DNA of 64,000 bases from Adineta ricciae (taxonomy: Eukaryota; Rotifera; Eurotatoria; Adinetida; Adinetidae), in the NCBI GenBank assembly GCA_905250025.1, contig CAJNOJ010000128.1:186001-250000 (forward strand). Direction: 5' to 3'. This document shows, piece by piece, positions 52,604 through 64,000 of the stretch. The notes under the pieces are model-generated. The model was not told where the DNA came from. It saw only the letters and a program-made list of their open reading frames with translations, and did no database searches. How positions within the stretch are numbered: the stretch's first letter is position 1; each line of letters starts with the position of its first letter. Both the position numbers and the translations under genes were made by a program.

Positions 52604-55386
52604 ATGTTCTCATTTCATCCGACAACCACAGCTGCTACTACATCCGCTTCAATGTTTACATTTTCTCGTCCGATTACATCACAAGCATCAAATATACCAC
52701 TGTTTCAATTTGGTGGTAGTGGCGCACAGGGTGGTGCGACTGTCTCACCATTTGCCCCTCTTCCAGCAACGAATCAACCTGCTAACAACGCAAATTCAAG
52801 TATGGAAAACGTAGAGGATCTCATTGCTTAACTATAAGATTTCTTTTCTATTTCAGATGCTACTGGCTTGTTCCAGTTCGTAAGCGGTCAATGCGCACCG
52901 GCAGCACAAGTACCAAATTATTTTTTCACAAATCAAACAGGCACAACAATTAAATTCATTCCAGTAGCTTCACAAGGTAAACTTCATACCATACATTTTT
53001 TAAATAATCCATTTCGATTTTTTAGAGACTGAATATGTGCGTAAAACTAAGAAAATTGTAACTTCGGATGTAAAATATCAGTGCATATGTAATATAAAAG
53101 AGTATTCGAGTAAATCGATGGATGAGCTTCGATTAGAAGATTATCAATCAAATCGAAAGCTCCCCTCAGGTAATGCCTTGTTTTTCCCGTCTGAAAAATC
53201 ATCCATTAATACTAAAGTCTCTTATTCTTTTAGCGTCGACCTCGGTTGCCTCAAATACATTGATCTTCAATGTCAATCCTCCAATTACAACCGCAGCGAA
53301 ACCATTTAGTACTGCGACTACGACCAATAATATTTTCAATCCATCGGTGTCAACTGTAGCGAACCCTTTCAGTGTTGCGACTCCGACCAGTAATATTTTC
53401 AATCCATCGGTGTCAACTGTAGCGAACCCTTTCAGTACTGCGACTACGACCAGTAATATTTTCAATCCATCGGTGTCAACTGCAGCGAGCCCTTTCAGTA
53501 CTGCGACTACGACCAGTAATATTTTCAATCCATCGGTGTCAACTGTAGCGAACCCTTTCAGTGTTGCGACTACGACCAGTAATATTTTCAATCCATCGGT
53601 GTCAACTGTAGCGAACCCTTTCAGTACTGCGACTACGACCAGTAATATTTTCAATCCATCGGTGTCAACTGCAGCGAGCCCTTTCAGTACTGCGACTACG
53701 ACCAGTAATATTTTCAATCCATCGGTGTCAACTGTAGCGAACCCTTTCAGAACTGCGACTACGACCAGTAATATTTTCAATCCAGCAATGTCAACTACAC
53801 CAATAACGACATTTCCGTGGTTAAAAAATGCTAGTTTAACACCAACTGCTCCAAATCTTAACCCATTCGGCATACAACCCGTAACTACAGGAGCTCCAAT
53901 GGCAACGGCATCATCAACGCATCCATTTACTACTACGCCAGCTACAACATCCAGTGTTTTCACAGTTCCGTCAATATTTCCTGGTTTTCGTACACCTACC
54001 ATATCGACGGTCAGTACGATCCCTTCAACTAATATCTCTCAGTCGTATACTGCACCGTTTCAATTCTCGCAAAGTTCATCGATTCTTAATCAACCATCAG
54101 TAATTCAATCAATATCTGTAACACAAACTCCGGCAATTGTGCCATCATCAATATCTTCAACGGCGGCATCAGAAACAGCTGCAATGAGTCAGCAACAGTT
54201 TCTTACCAAACTACTTCTCGATCCATACGGTAATCGTGGACGAAAAGAGTTTATCAATGCGGAATCAACCTCCTCGCCTAAGACATCCATTGTTGATTCA
54301 ACTTTACATACAACGGTGTCGGCATCGACACCGATACCAGTTGTTCTTCCGGTCCATTCGAATTTCCAAAGAACGACTGCTCCACATTCATCAATTAACT
54401 TAGATTTCAAACTAAAACCTACTTCGTCAGTTTCAACATCACATGAAGATACGCAGTCACTCAATCAACAATCTAAATCGACGACAGAACCAAGTAAAAG
54501 TACACTGTCGGGGGGTTTTACTGACGAAGAAGAGGTTGTTTTACTTACTCGTACGAAACTATCCAAATTACATTTGTTAAATAGTACAATGAATCAGCCA
54601 AATACACTTCATTCACTGTATCCCCGACGAAGTTTAGCTGAATTGGAATCATTAACAAAATTATCGCGACTATCACCTCCAATTTCGACACCTTCCGAAC
54701 AGACTGTTTTGCCAAAATCAGTCTCTCCAAACTTGGAACCTCAACCGAATATTGACCTGTCATCGTTCCGTTTACCAATCTTAACTCGTTTGAATTATTA
54801 TATGAAACCGGATCTAGCCGAATTAGAAACACTATTTAATGATAAAGGTCAATGTTTGGTCAAACAATTCACTGTTGGAAACGACAAGTATGGTTCAGTG
54901 ACATTTTATGGACAAATTAACGTTGCTGGACTTAATCTTGATGAAATAAGTAAGTTAATCTTTGCGAAAAACAATTTTACACCAACATATATCTTCTATT
55001 CATTCTCATTCTAGTTCAAATCAATCACCAAGAAGTTATTGTTTATCCCGATGATATAAGAAAACCAGCCGTCGGTGAAGAATTGAATCGTTCTGCTCGT
55101 ATTACATTATTTGACGTCTATCCAATCGATCGAGCAACACGATCAAAAATAAGCGATATTGAACGAATCAGAGCGATGAATTACAGTGATCATTTACGTG
55201 AAACCACCGGAAAGTTCGATGGAGAATTCATCAACTACGATCCCATCGATGGATCGTGGACATTCATGGTATGAAAACTTCAATATTGCAGTGAAAGTTA
55301 ATCTATACATGTTCTTCATTTCTTTATAGGTAAAACATTTTACTCGTTACGGTATCGATGAGAACGAAAAGTATACGAACCTCTAA
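52604..55386 (+). CDS. NUP98: NUP98-type nucleoporin, FG-poor, without Nup96
   Basis: NUP98 lines the nuclear pore, binds the mRNA-export factor RAE1 and forms the FG permeability barrier. Six exons (52604-52799, 52857-52976, 53026-53169, 53234-54949, 55015-55268, 55330-55386) give 828 residues. A GLEBS-type RAE1-binding motif is clear (YQCICNIKEYSSKSMDELRL, then EDYQSNRK). The C-terminal autoproteolytic domain is complete (TRLNYYMKPDLAELETLFND, QFTVGNDKYGSVTFYGQINV, EVIVYPDDIRKPAVGEELNR, GSWTFMVKHFTRYG). The protein stops 13 residues after the expected HF|T cleavage point, so no Nup96 half is fused. Oddities: Thr replaces Ser at the scissile site, and the FG region is replaced by a 21-residue repeat lacking FG. 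I can find only two FG dipeptides in total (FQFGG, NPFGIQ). Confidence 0.92.
53302..53805 (+). repeat. 63-bp tandem repeat in NUP98, eight units
   Basis: Eight in-frame 63-bp units encode variants of PFSTATTTSNIFNPSVSTVAN. Units differ mainly at ST/SV after PF and VAN/AAS at the end. From unit 2 on, a three-unit pattern (VAN, AAS, VAN) recurs, indicating a 189-bp higher-order unit. The first and last units are the most divergent, as expected for array edges. Near-identity at nucleotide level points to recent expansion or homogenisation. Confidence 0.95.
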
Positions 55387-57364: not shown

Positions 57365-60300
57365 ATGGCTTTCTCTCGACATTCACTTCGACGTGTTCTT
57401 GGTGATATGGTTCATCGTCAGAATCCAAAAGCTGATTCTCTCAATACCACTCCTCCTGAACATGACAAAAATCTGCATAAATCACAAAAGAAAATCGATC
57501 GAAATTCAATTATCAGCAATGGTTCTTTATCGGTAAGAATGATGTTCTTTTTTGCTTGTTCGTGTAAATAAACAATGATTATCTGTTAGTTACCTCAGAC
57601 AAGTTATGAACGATTACATAAAAACGAACAAGAAGTATGCAAATCATTGAATTATCTTGATCAAGTCTTGACACATAACAAACTGGAGATTCTTCCGAGC
57701 ATCGTTACATCGCTAATTGAGAACATTTTCGACATTGAAAGTGTATTGAAAGGTATATTTGAACATGAATCTGCAACATTCAGGTAAATTAACATTGAAG
57801 CATTACCATCAGTTGAACGTATTTCAATGAATTTAGAGCACATCTACTCAATGACGTCTATTCTCTCCTCGCAGATCTAATCGACTGGTCTGATCGATTC
57901 CTTCTGGCCAAATCAATAAATCCCGATGAAAAATACAAAAAACTAACTCGTGATCTTATCCAAGCGATCAAAGTAGGCGGAAACGAACTAAATCACGATC
58001 CTCTTCTCTTCTTCCTGTAGAATTGCATTTTATTTGCTAATGATGCATCTTCAATTCAAAGCGCAGAGACACGTTCTGGTTCGATACAAAGTTTTCACTC
58101 ATCGAACAGGTACATTTCGTTTTCTCTATCGATTATTTCATCGAATTCTTCGTATGTTTAGTTATAATGATGAATCCGCACCTGTCCTTCCTCCAAAACG
58201 CGACAAACCTTCGATCAATTCTTCCACAACCATTGTCTCCAATCGAATACGACCTAACGGTAGTACAAATTCCGTTCCGAGAAAGATCCACCCAGATAAA
58301 GATAACGATCAATGTATACAACTTATTGTCGATGATATCAATCAGATCGTCGAGAAATACACACGTGAATTAGATGATGCGATACGTACGAAAACTACGG
58401 CTCGTTCCCCTTCAGCTGAACAACTATTCGATCAGAATTGTTCGATAACAATGACAGCACCTTGCCATCAACATCCTCAAAATGCTGATACATTATACGA
58501 AACTCAAGTTTCGAAAATCATCAAAAGCACAGTAACGAAAACGACAGTTAAAAATGGCCATGAGATAATTGATCAAAAACAATCATGTCAGCTTTATAAC
58601 GAAACCGATTGTTCGATTCAGTCGCCCAATGGAACTTTCCAAACGCAAAAATTTACATTCATCAATCGAGAAAAGATCAACAACGAAGACGAACAGCAGA
58701 AATCATTCGTCACATCTCAAAATCGACAGTTAAATCTCGCCAAAGCCGAAGACGGCAGTAATGAACCACCACCGTTACCGCCCAAACGAAAGACAGGTTA
58801 TTACTTCCTCTCTAACATCGGAAACGGACGTAGAAAATTGCTTTTTCTTTCAACTAGTTGAGTTCTACTTGATTGGATTAAAACTCGGAAACAGTTCTTC
58901 ACCATTTTCTTTTTCCTGTTCCGTTTTTTAGCTCGAGCGTACATGTCCCTATTTGATCGGTATGATCAACATGTCGCGGAAAATTTCCTTCGTGATACGT
59001 GTTCCGTACCAACACCTCAACGACGGTTTGAAGACTTATTCGAACAAATGCAAGAACACTTCCAACAGATGCAAATCTTTCCCAATTTGGATGAATCGCT
59101 GAGAATAAAACTGAAAAACACCGACAAATCCAGTGACTCCGTAAGTTATAGATGGACCCGATATTCTCGTCAATAAATTGCCATTCATTTAGCTGAAAGA
59201 CATGGACGAATCATTTACATGTAAAAATCCATTGAAAATTGACTATCACAGTGATCTTTTCCTGGAAAATATTTCCCATTTACTTGTCTTTAATCTGGTA
59301 AGTGTGATGGGTTTCGTTTGCATAACTCCGTAGGCATATCTTACTCTAGAACGAAAATCCGTCATTACGCGGTGGTTCTATCGATGCGTTGATCATCCGA
59401 GCAACATCTCCCGATAAAAAAGGTTCGATTTTACTTACTGAAATCGTCGATTGTGTGATGTTGATGATGTATTCTGTAGATTTCGTTTATCAAGAAGCGT
59501 TTCTAACTACCTATCGTACATTTGTCTCTCCGAGTGATTTAGTTGAAAAATTAATTCAACGTTATACGTTCTTTTCCCAATTTGAAACGAAGAAGAAGAT
59601 ATCGCGATATGCGTTTTCACTTCTCATTCGAGTCATCGATGAAATCGAGTAACATACACCATGTTTATTTTTCCGAGAATTCACTCACAATTTCATGTAT
59701 TTAGTAACGAACTAACGGAAGATTTAATGGAATCTCTTTCGAATTTTGTTACGAATCTAATTCGTCAAGGTGAACTTCAACTAGGGAAACTTCTACGACG
59801 GAAATCTCTCGAACGTTTTACAAAATTCCCGCCATCATCGGAACAAACTCCGCAAGATATTCTCATTATACAAAACTCAATTTCTTCCAAACGAGCGACG
59901 TTACTTGATTTTCACGCCAGTGATATTAGTGAACAATTAACTCTACTGGATTCAGAATTATTTCTCAAAATCCAACTATCTGAAATCTTATACATGTCAA
60001 TTGAAAAAGGAGAAGAATATTCACCGAATTTAGCCGCTTTCACCGAACATTTCAACAATATCTCCTATTGGTGAGATGTTCGAATGGTTGGAATCCATAG
60101 ATCTTTCATTCATTTCTTGCAGGGTCCGATCACGAATCCTCGAACAAAACTCGCAGAAACAACGTGAAATTCATTTTGAAAAGTTCTTGAAAATATTAAA
60201 AGTAAGAATACGATACTTTCAATGAAGCGAGAGATTGACTTAACCTAGCTAATATATAGCCAGACAGTAGACTGGATTTGTTATGGCTCGACTACTCTCT

Positions 60301-61018
60301 TGCGTTACTACATAAATAAATCAGGTTTCGCTTATGAGAGTATTAGACATTGCCTTGAAGAACACGTTGTAATCGTAAGACATGTCGTCTGTTTAGCATT
60401 TACGGCGATTAAATAACTTCAATTCATATTTGGCCATACTCTCCGCTTTGGATTGTGGCCCGTTAAAACGATTGCATTGGTCGAAGAGTATTATTGACGT
60501 AAGAAACTTCTTCTCTCAATATTTCATTTTTACATTCGTTCATGTAGTCAATATCAGAACACGCCGGACTTATTGACAGCACTGGATCATTTAAAAACTA
60601 CCGCGAAGCATTGAATGCATCGGTTGGACAACCGTGTATACCTTACATGTAAGTCAATCGACTAGATGTTATAGTTTTCAGTACGCAGTTTTCTAGTGGA
60701 TTGATTCTGTCGGATTTAACCTTTGTTCATATTGGTAATACGGATTATTTGCCGGATGGTCGAACAGTTAATTTTTGGAAACGGTGGCAACAATTTACTA
60801 TTTTACATAAACTTCGTTACTGTCGAAAATGGTAATTGTTCATGAAAAGTTCTGCCGATGAAAATCTCGTTGTTATCTGTTTTAGGGAACATAAATTCAT
60901 TCGTAACGATCGTATATTGTATTTTTTTAATAACTTCGATGATTATATGAATGAAGATGCACAATGGATTCAATCAGAGAAAATCAAGCCCCGACAAAAA
61001 TCTAATCCATATGCTTAG
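57365..61018 (+). CDS. RAPGEF1: Rap guanine nucleotide exchange factor 1 (C3G)
   Basis: C3G loads GTP on Rap1 downstream of Crk adaptors at adhesions and growth-factor receptors. Fourteen exons keep phase and give 913 residues. Crk-SH3 ligands of the C3G type are present: APVLPPKRDKP and EPPPLPPKRKT. The REM (RasGEF-N) domain contains DFVYQEAFLTTYRTFVSPSD. The CDC25 catalytic domain shows HASDISEQLTLLDSELFLKI, NLAAFTEHFNNISYWVRSRI, HLRRLNNFNSYLAILSALDC and PCIPYIGLILSDLTFVHIGN, ending IQSEKIKPRQKSNPYA. The order and the end match vertebrate RAPGEF1, which is somewhat longer at the N-terminus. The start at 57365 follows an acceptor-like TTTTCTTAG, so further upstream exons are possible. Poly(A) signal at 61236-61241. 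The opposing enzyme Rap1GAP is encoded in the same window. Confidence 0.95.
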
Positions 61019-61279: not shown

Positions 61280-62216
61280 ATGAAAGCAACGAAATTAACA
61301 AACGTGTGTTTGTATAGATTATTGTCACTATCAACTTGCAGATTCGATGTACGTTCCGCAATATTGGCGCGTGATCTTACTAAAAGTTTTGTTTCTGTTA
61401 TTGTTTAGAAAAAAACGGCGGCATCGAAGGATTTACTTGCAGAGTATGAAAAGAAACGGGATTTTAAGAAAACAAATGAACCTAAACCAACAGAAGCTCA
61501 GCCTGAAATGAATCAACATCGATTTGTTGTACAGGAGCATCACGCCTCGATGTTACATTTTGATTTTCGACTTGAATTAAACGGTGTTATGAAAAGGTAC
61601 ATTTGAAATTTCTGCTTCACGAACAATAACTTTCATACATGTCTTTTGCAGCTGGTAGGTCGATAGAACGATGGAAGATTATTATTAAACTATGATTTAC
61701 ACAGGTCAGTGCCGAAAGGACCAAGTTTAAATCCTCGAGATAAACGTCTAGCAATTATGGTTGAAGATCATCCAATTGAGTATATGAATTTTCAAGGAAC
61801 TATTCCAAACGGAGAATATGGCGCAGGTTTGTTAAAACTCAACATAATCCGTAATGCAAAATTTCCTTCTGATAGGCGAAGTACGAACGTGGGATATTGG
61901 AACATATGAGTCGTTGGATGACAATGATGATATGAATGCGGGTATTGATAAAGGCAAATTAACCTTTCGACTTCATGGCAAGAAATTGAAAGGCGAATTT
62001 CACATGGTTCGTTCGCGATTCGGCAAAACTCAACGAGATAATCAATGGTTGTTGATGAAAACGAACGATCAATTTGCTGATGAACATTTTGTACTCGATC
62101 GTATCCTTGATTATGGTTCACGACGAGATCTGCAAACAGCAAAGATTACTACTGGAAGTGAAAAATGTCCACAAGCTACATCCGCATTGCCCAAGCGAAC
62201 GAAAAGAAAGTCATAA
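61280..62216 (+). CDS. Stand-alone ligase D 3'-phosphoesterase (LigD PE) domain protein
   Basis: The PE domain of bacterial/archaeal NHEJ ligase D trims 3' ends by removing a terminal ribonucleoside and 3'-phosphate, leaving a ligatable 3'-OH. Five exons (61280-61348, 61409-61596, 61652-61654, 61705-61826, 61876-62216) give 240 residues. Motifs: [60 protein letters not shown] then GAGEVRTWD, and C-terminal [20 protein letters not shown] and NQWLLMK. His67, His73, Asp75, Arg77, His109 and Tyr113 have the same spacing as the Pseudomonas LigD catalytic set (H42, H48, D50, R52, H84, Y88), so it should be active. No ligase or polymerase domain is attached. The first 23 residues ([20 protein letters not shown]) look like a mitochondrial presequence, though this exon is less certain. 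A basic tail (PKRTKRKS) could be nuclear. An in-frame stop near 61237 precedes the ATG. Poly(A) signal at 62264-62269. Confidence 0.93.
61652..61654 (+). other. Inferred 3-nt microexon (CTG) in the LigD PE gene
   Basis: CTTTTGCAG|CTG|GTAGGT: an acceptor and a donor enclose three bases. Joined to AAAAG upstream and GTCAGTG downstream it gives Lys-Ser-Trp-Ser-Val-Pro-Lys, the conserved PE motif. Flanking introns of 55 and 50 nt are normal for this genome. Skipping it keeps the frame but yields Lys-Arg-Ser-Val-Pro-Lys, losing the Trp. Confidence 0.75.
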
Positions 62217-63029: not shown

Positions 63030-64000
63030 TTATTGCTGCCAATATGATGGTGGGATCGATGGATGCATTTGTTCCATGAAATTTGCTCCATCAATCGACG
63101 AAGATTCTGTTGGCATTAAGATTTGAGCTTGAGAAGTCATTAGGTTCATATTTCCATTATGATCTTCAGATTTTTCTTCTTCACGACGACGTAAACATGC
63201 AGCTTTTGGATTCAGGTTTCGTTCTAAAACACAAGAGTTCTCATTTCAAACAACGAACCTATCCTGATCACTTCCTCTTACCTCGAACTTGTTGTTCAAG
63301 TGTTGTGATCAAATTAACTGCTTGTTGAAGTACACCCAGTTTAGTAACTGGTTTATCATTTCGCATATGAATGGCACACATACGGCCGAGTTCTTTAAAT
63401 GCATCGTTGATGTCTCGAACACGTAATCTAAAATCATATTGATGAAGATTTTCCCTCGAAACAGAAATCGGTTCATACGTACCGTTCGCGAGCGTTATTT
63501 GCTGCGCGTCGATCTTTCTCCCGACGTTCGCGTTCTTCAGGTGTTTCATTTGGATCAATACTCTCTTCCGACGGTGGTCCACCACGCATGTACGATAAAT
63601 TTAAATGACTATTTGGACTTAATGTCAATGAACTTCAATAGACAAGAGAAACAATCAAATCGATGAGCATAAAACTTCATTTGTCCTTACTTTCGTAATT
63701 TTGTTGACGAGGACGATATTGGTCCTGCATGTGTTCCACTCGCACCACCAACAGCAATTGTCAATGGTGCCGCATTCTCTTCTGATATATCATGTCGAAG
63801 ATTGAAGTCGTTTAGTTTACCTGTAGTTATTTGAGTCGCACCATTGGTTGCTGGCGGTTTATTCTCAACGTTAACTTTAACTTTGTCAAGACATTCAAGC
63901 TTCAAATCTGGATTCATCGATGTATGGTTGGCATCATTCGATGATGTCGATGAAGATGAAGATGCTGGATTGCCATCTGAAATTGTATCTATGAGAGCAC
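63030..64000 (-). CDS. TCF4: Class I bHLH E-protein (TCF4/TCF12/daughterless), 3' part
   Basis: E-proteins are ubiquitous bHLH factors that dimerise with tissue-specific bHLH partners on E-boxes (CANNTG). The 3' exons are 63030-63223, 63282-63427, 63483-63632 and 63691 to the window edge (possible acceptor near 63978). The basic region is [19 protein letters not shown], split by the intron in the Arg codon; the HLH follows with [20 protein letters not shown] and [40 protein letters not shown] is the invariant E-protein extension after helix 2. The tail ends PPSYWQQ. The upstream exon is a low-complexity region with no recognised activation domain. The N-terminal part, including AD1/AD2, is outside the window. 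Which vertebrate paralog it equals cannot be decided; invertebrates usually have one. Confidence 0.95.

Follow-up and report, generated by a model that had tools for sequence, protein, structure and literature searches.

Bdelloid rotifers survive massive DNA breakage. The 3'-phosphoesterase (PE) domain of LigD works in two steps: loss of a 3'-terminal nucleoside yields a 3'-phosphate, and hydrolysis of the latter gives a 3'-OH. This chemistry and the active-site residues of the Pseudomonas aeruginosa domain, including Ser61, are taken from PMC8656161. Bacterial-type PE proteins of stand-alone length are found as well (P0012, P0014, Kapabacteria P0021 and Bacteroidota P0121). A bdelloid DNA ligase E, AvLigE, is a horizontally acquired repair ligase reported to be helpful against DNA breakage (PMC10665377). 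Plants have exons as small as 1 to 15 nt, which annotation commonly misses and which alter the protein (PMC8831610).

The gene described here resembles the P. aeruginosa LigD PE domain (3N9B / 2LJ6) in its full-length domain and in the spacing of its catalytic and phosphate-binding residues. It differs in being unfused to ligase or polymerase, in carrying spliceosomal introns, a pair of which would surround a 3-nt exon, and in having an N-terminal extension. The stand-alone-length bacterial-type proteins are alike in length, domain content and basic tail and lie nearest in the tree; P0012, P0014 and P0021 begin just ahead of the domain, without the rotifer's 23-residue extension. AvLigE (PMC10665377) and the rotifer PE are both bacterial-type repair genes retained by bdelloids, but AvLigE is an end-sealing enzyme of a family other than PE. 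A second acquired repair step, 3'-end healing, beside LigE would suggest piecemeal uptake of bacterial end repair. The putative rotifer microexon is, like the plant microexons of PMC8831610, tiny, overlooked by annotation and protein-changing. Unlike them, it lies in an animal gene of apparently bacterial origin and would contribute to active-site codons. Such an exon shows the extent of remodelling open to a foreign intronless gene.

Eukaryotic PE domains (PMC8656161) and the automatic UniRef naming of bdelloid members as 'DNA ligase D 3'-phosphoesterase domain-containing' were already known; the putative 3-nt microexon is new. The words 'LigD' and 'phosphoesterase' were absent from the main texts of PMC6264785, PMC10665377, PMC12220480, PMC13407396 and PMC10809525. 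Literature on the sequence, origin or microexon of a bdelloid PE gene was not found beyond a mention of 'Ligase D' in PMC10809525, with subscription papers and supplements lying outside the scope of the search.

The window is a 64,000-nt stretch of contig C128 (positions 186001-250000) of the 130-Mb Adineta ricciae genome. A five-exon PE gene with an intact frame was located at window positions 61280-62216 (+). Once joined, the exons gave an open frame of 723 nt that codes for 240 aa and ends in a stop; between them lay four introns of 60, 55, 50 and 49 nt, all GT-AG. An earlier sequence-only reading had placed the gene at 61280..62216 with four host-type introns, and this structure was reproduced. 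The features of the locus were as follows.

59643..61018, + strand: upstream neighbour, RasGEF-domain gene (its 3' part), with the stop codon at 61018; Pfam RasGEF 1.9e-9
61280..61348, + strand: exon 1, 69 nt, phase 0 end; 23-residue N-terminal extension
61349..61408, + strand: intron 1, 60 nt, GTACGT...TTGTTTAG; equal length in the C41 copy
61409..61596, + strand: exon 2, PE domain start; P. aeruginosa LigD (PaLigD) positions Arg14, Glu21, Gln40, His42, His48, Asp50 and Arg52
61597..61651, + strand: intron 2, 55 nt, GTACAT...TTTTGCAG
61652..61654, + strand: exon 3, putative 3-nt microexon of sequence CTG; supplies the last base of AG|C (Ser86, PaLigD Ser61) and the first two of TG|G (Trp87, position 62)
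61655..61704, + strand: intron 3, 50 nt, GTAGGT...TTACACAG
61705..61826, + strand: exon 4, PE domain; Glu107, His109 and Tyr113 (PaLigD Glu82, His84 and Tyr88)
61827..61875, + strand: intron 4, 49 nt, GTTTGT...TCTGATAG
61876..62216, + strand: exon 5, remaining PE domain followed by the C-terminal tail, which is basic and changes fast, and the stop
63271..63600, - strand: downstream neighbour, bHLH exon of an E-protein gene (TCF4/E2A-type); matches E2-alpha / Transcription factor 4 at about 2e-16

A shorter exon 1 that uses a donor at 61304 and gives 225 aa also left the frame open, but was rejected in favour of the longer version found in A. vaga, in five of seven Rotaria records and in P0008. 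The long exon 1 together with the CTG exon gave the residue numbering proposed earlier (H67, H73, D75, R77, H109, Y113). Under the short exon 1 these residues would run from H52 to Y98, and omission of CTG would shift H109 and Y113 by one; the earlier numbering thus implies the 3-nt exon, although the microexon went unremarked there.

The spliced protein with the microexon matched TIGR02777 (LigD_PE_dom) at 222 bits against a cut-off of 144, over positions 1-156 of 156, and the public model P0001 matched PF13298 at 130.6 bits against a cut-off of 31.1, over positions 1-107 of 107. These full-length matches above curated cut-offs bear out the assignment to the Pfam LigD_N-type PE domain. Solved LigD PE domains were also matched (2lj6 at 6.8e-50, 3n9b at 2.7e-44). 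All six metal and phosphate ligands of the P. aeruginosa enzyme (His42, His48, Asp50, Arg52, His84 and Tyr88) were present in the spliced protein at the spacing of Pseudomonas LigD, as had been claimed, and each was invariant in 291 non-bdelloid relatives (an aligned count that includes nine loci missed by motif and read by eye). The accessory residues Gln40, Ser61, Arg14, Glu21 and Glu82 were all present, Ser61 conditionally on splicing of the microexon. PMC8656161 prints Arg15; by our own count both the structure sequence and the rotifer protein have Asp after Arg14. A full LigD with PE, ligase and polymerase parts was not found, LigD_N being the sole Pfam match of P0001. By its predicted product the window gene is one for a stand-alone LigD-type 3'-phosphoesterase. 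Its presence in an animal, as first proposed, agrees with the introns, the metazoan neighbours and the two haplotype copies.

The PE gene lies between two metazoan genes, as the sequence-only reading had it, with a RasGEF gene (+) on one side and an E-protein bHLH gene (-) on the other. The downstream gene is of the E-protein (TCF4/E2A) type; the upstream name RAPGEF1 was not established, this gene being of the RasGEF family with Son of sevenless as its best PDB names. Elsewhere in the window, positions 53137-55011 (+) hold a frame with many similar repeats (by eye) and a terminal Nup98-96 autopeptidase domain, a Nup98-like nucleoporin.

A second intact PE copy was present on contig C41, to which the last 8.0 kb of the window aligned end to end at 94.6% identity. 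Synonymous divergence between the two copies was 0.19 (dS); in A. ricciae, according to PMC5916493, homologs have a mean KS of 0.14 and ohnologs one of 1.27. The copies were therefore taken as one locus on two homologous haplotypes, and the alternative of two old paralogues was rejected. Between the C128 and C41 copies, residues 58-213 carried 15 synonymous and six non-synonymous changes (dN/dS 0.09; small numbers, but a clear contrast with the tail), whereas dN/dS was 1.27 in the tail from residue 214 to the end (window 62133-62213). The PE domain is under purifying selection. The unconstrained C-terminal tail is still basic, as are, by eye, the tails of several bacterial-type relatives. Contamination is unlikely because the gene sits between the RasGEF and E-protein bHLH genes, and the introns and two haplotype copies also stand against it. 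The view of the gene as domesticated is upheld by these same features, by the purifying selection and by its occurrence in three bdelloid genera.

Exon 2 and exon 4 are separated by 108 bases. Removal of these as one intron keeps the frame and gives Lys-Arg-Ser, whereas removal of two introns (55 and 50 nt) around CTG gives Lys-Ser-Trp-Ser, the bacterial pattern. Lys-Arg-Ser was found in the public models of A. ricciae, A. steineri and Rotaria, and Lys-Arg-Cys in the A. vaga model. Addition of the microexon raised the profile score by 15 bits, from 207 to 222. Serine at position 61 was found in 291 of 291 non-bdelloid relatives and tryptophan at position 62 in 290 of 291. Thirteen records were bdelloid or bdelloid-like. 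Ten of these (P0001-P0007 and P0009-P0011, Rotaria sp. Silwood1 accounting for four) had arginine in place of Ser-Trp; of the other three, P0008 and P0027 carried Ser-Trp and P0019 was truncated. P0008, whose frame runs unbroken along a contig of 1234 nt, has both Ser-Trp and the N-terminal extension, and was placed with bdelloids by the tree. It is probably a spliced transcript.

It would follow from the public models that the real bdelloid protein has Lys-Arg-Ser and no Ser-Trp, with a single 108-nt intron and a CTG that arose by chance. This reading draws on the in-frame Lys-Arg of the ten records, but is very improbable in our judgement given the invariance of the serine and near-invariance of the tryptophan among the relatives, together with Ser-Trp in P0008 and P0027. 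Chance was assessed with dinucleotide-shuffled introns, of which 0.43% contained AG[CT]TGGT and 1 in 20,000 contained it with a polypyrimidine tract and donor. Both haplotypes have the CTG arrangement, and none of the 11 differences in the block fell in a 33-base core including CTG (Fisher p 0.017, for a core whose limits were fixed post hoc with both haplotype sequences already seen). At 55 and 50 nt, the two introns also lie near the median of 55 printed in PMC5916493, in the column whose mean of 104 bp is given for A. ricciae, which speaks against a single 108-nt intron.

Exon 3 thus seems to be a 3-nt microexon encoding part of the active site, and the arginine records are probably a systematic misannotation in which predictors skipped the 3-nt exon. 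Because the models of Adineta and Rotaria uniformly show arginine, the microexon may well be older than the split between these genera. An annotated protein ordered for assay may be a damaged enzyme, the active-site serine probably being missing in ten of the 13 records.

PE relatives were found by protein search (best 120) in Adineta ricciae, A. steineri, A. vaga, four Rotaria names and Didymodactylos. Three protein searches were run, with the rotifer protein, P0012 and the Didymodactylos protein as queries. The 8000 candidates sharing most words were scored in the first two and all 2259 candidates in the Didymodactylos search. To be admitted, a protein had to measure between 0.55 and 1.75 times its query in length, which kept full LigD out; full-length LigD entered the trees solely via bacterial loci (best 80 of 581). 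Some of the short PE proteins may be fragments. Within some genera of the Bacteroidota, for example Chryseobacterium and Flavobacterium, the PE frame was about 200 aa in some genomes and about 850 aa (LigD length) in others (loci L005-L084, judged by length alone).

A tree was made from 89 hand-picked rows: nine were bdelloid, 27 came from the 71 parsed loci and the remaining 53 were other proteins. P0020, P0154 and P0161 fell out. The nine bdelloid rows formed one group (100/91), sister to P0012/P0014 (97/91). The adjoining group had 28 members, PE proteins of stand-alone length with Kapabacteria and Bacteroidota names among them, and full-length LigD rows lay elsewhere. A quick tree of 176 rows omitted 11 protein rows that lacked the motif or were too short, the near copies P0003-P0005, the truncated P0019 and nine of the 80 loci (missed by motif). 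It kept the bdelloids together at 96 SH-aLRT and gave the P0012/P0014 link 36. A different bacterial sister was not rejected by the AU test (p 0.24). In these trees, sampled without fungi, the bdelloids grouped among bacterial-type PE proteins, in line with the earlier claim of horizontal transfer; the AU tests leave alternatives for the sister group and for the number of transfers.

A separate acquisition of the Didymodactylos gene, apart from that of the Adineta/Rotaria lineage, appears rather unlikely. P0027, the Didymodactylos protein, has a long branch, a public model without the N-terminal extension, and P0012 and P0014 as its best database matches; its exclusion from the bdelloid group was not rejected either (AU p 0.43). 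Both free trees nevertheless united it with the other bdelloids, at 100/91 and at 96 SH-aLRT.

A fungus or other eukaryote, itself supplied by bacteria, could also have been the donor, and PE domains do occur in eukaryotic proteomes according to the review PMC8656161. Among organism-named rows, a minority of those in the best 120 of each of the three protein searches, one of which scored all 2259 candidates, there was no eukaryote other than bdelloids, and the nearest tree rows were bacterial-type proteins (in a tree without fungal sequences); an intermediate eukaryote is accordingly improbable. The fungal donor offered in the sequence-only reading as an alternative gained no support, with no named fungus in those best 120 rows of searches that did not target fungi. 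Horizontal acquisition itself accords with the grouping with bacterial-type PE proteins, the metazoan-flanked integration and the spread over three bdelloid genera. Transfer of the bdelloid PE gene from a bacterium is well supported, and the donor gene was probably a stand-alone PE, a preference set partly by the length limits of the protein searches.

N-terminal extensions similar to that of exon 1 were found in A. vaga P0011, in five of seven Rotaria records and in P0008. Four models lacked them, namely P0005, P0007 (A. steineri), P0010 and P0027, which represent A. steineri, Didymodactylos and two Rotaria. The enzyme could be mitochondrial, exon 1 being a targeting presequence gained after transfer. 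We hold this to be possible though doubtful. The 23 residues occupy their own exon with a phase 0 end, and acidic residues are few in the first 26 positions (0-1 in six extension-bearing models against 2-4 in four bacterial-type relatives). Against a presequence, helical amphipathicity of the extension in the six models was not higher than in shuffles (z -1.5 to 0.6), the extension is missing from the four models named above, and the basic tail would suit the nucleus too.

We consider it likely, as one joint explanation, that a stand-alone PE of bacterial origin gained introns and a microexon and serves in 3'-end healing. Frame, family, catalytic residues, gene structure, copies, selection and relatives are evident in the sequence; the donor, microexon splicing, catalysis, partners and use after drying or radiation we infer. 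An ancestor of the sampled bdelloids would have taken the PE gene from a bacterium, probably in stand-alone form. Four short spliceosomal introns would then have entered the transferred gene, one pair leaving the 3-nt microexon in active-site codons, and a separate exon would have added the N-terminal extension. The metal-dependent enzyme, whose predicted 3'-ribonuclease and 3'-phosphatase activities would require Mn, would probably strip 3'-terminal ribonucleosides and 3'-phosphates from broken DNA; the residues listed in PMC8656161 are kept, including Arg14, Glu21 and Glu82 of the second step. The resulting 3'-OH ends could be joined by host polymerases and ligases, with the PE acting as a free-standing end-cleaner. 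This role is proposed because no LigD polymerase domain was found and Ku-type and PNK3P domains are present. LigD_Prim-Pol gave no match in the A. ricciae genome in an exon-by-exon search, by which a split gene could be missed (control: 2 of 14 genomes), and the same genome gave six Ku-type and four PNK3P-type 3'-phosphatase domain matches. The 3'-phosphatase role of the PE may be redundant with the PNK3P-type domains.

A splicing switch may be imagined in addition, inclusion of CTG giving Ser-Trp and its skipping giving an in-frame Arg protein that could bind ends without healing them, while the N-terminus would direct the protein to mitochondria, so that bacterial-type end healing would serve organelle or nuclear DNA after drying or irradiation. 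We regard this as a long shot.

In PMC10809525, an A. vaga 'Ligase D in NHEJ' is over-expressed after X-rays, and after Fe-ion irradiation the change is significant at 8 h but was not yet so at 2.5 h. Annotation often gives short bacterial PE proteins the name LigD, and a LigD polymerase part was not found in the sister species A. ricciae; the published 'Ligase D' (PMC10809525) is therefore probably the bdelloid PE gene, in A. vaga I4U23_006552 (P0011).

Two of the PNK3P domains of A. ricciae lie about 6.6 kb apart on contig C247 (142405-142845 and 148982-149413, +), in open frames of 1098 and 914 aa. Frames of 1098 and 914 aa are unusually long for a PNK3P domain.
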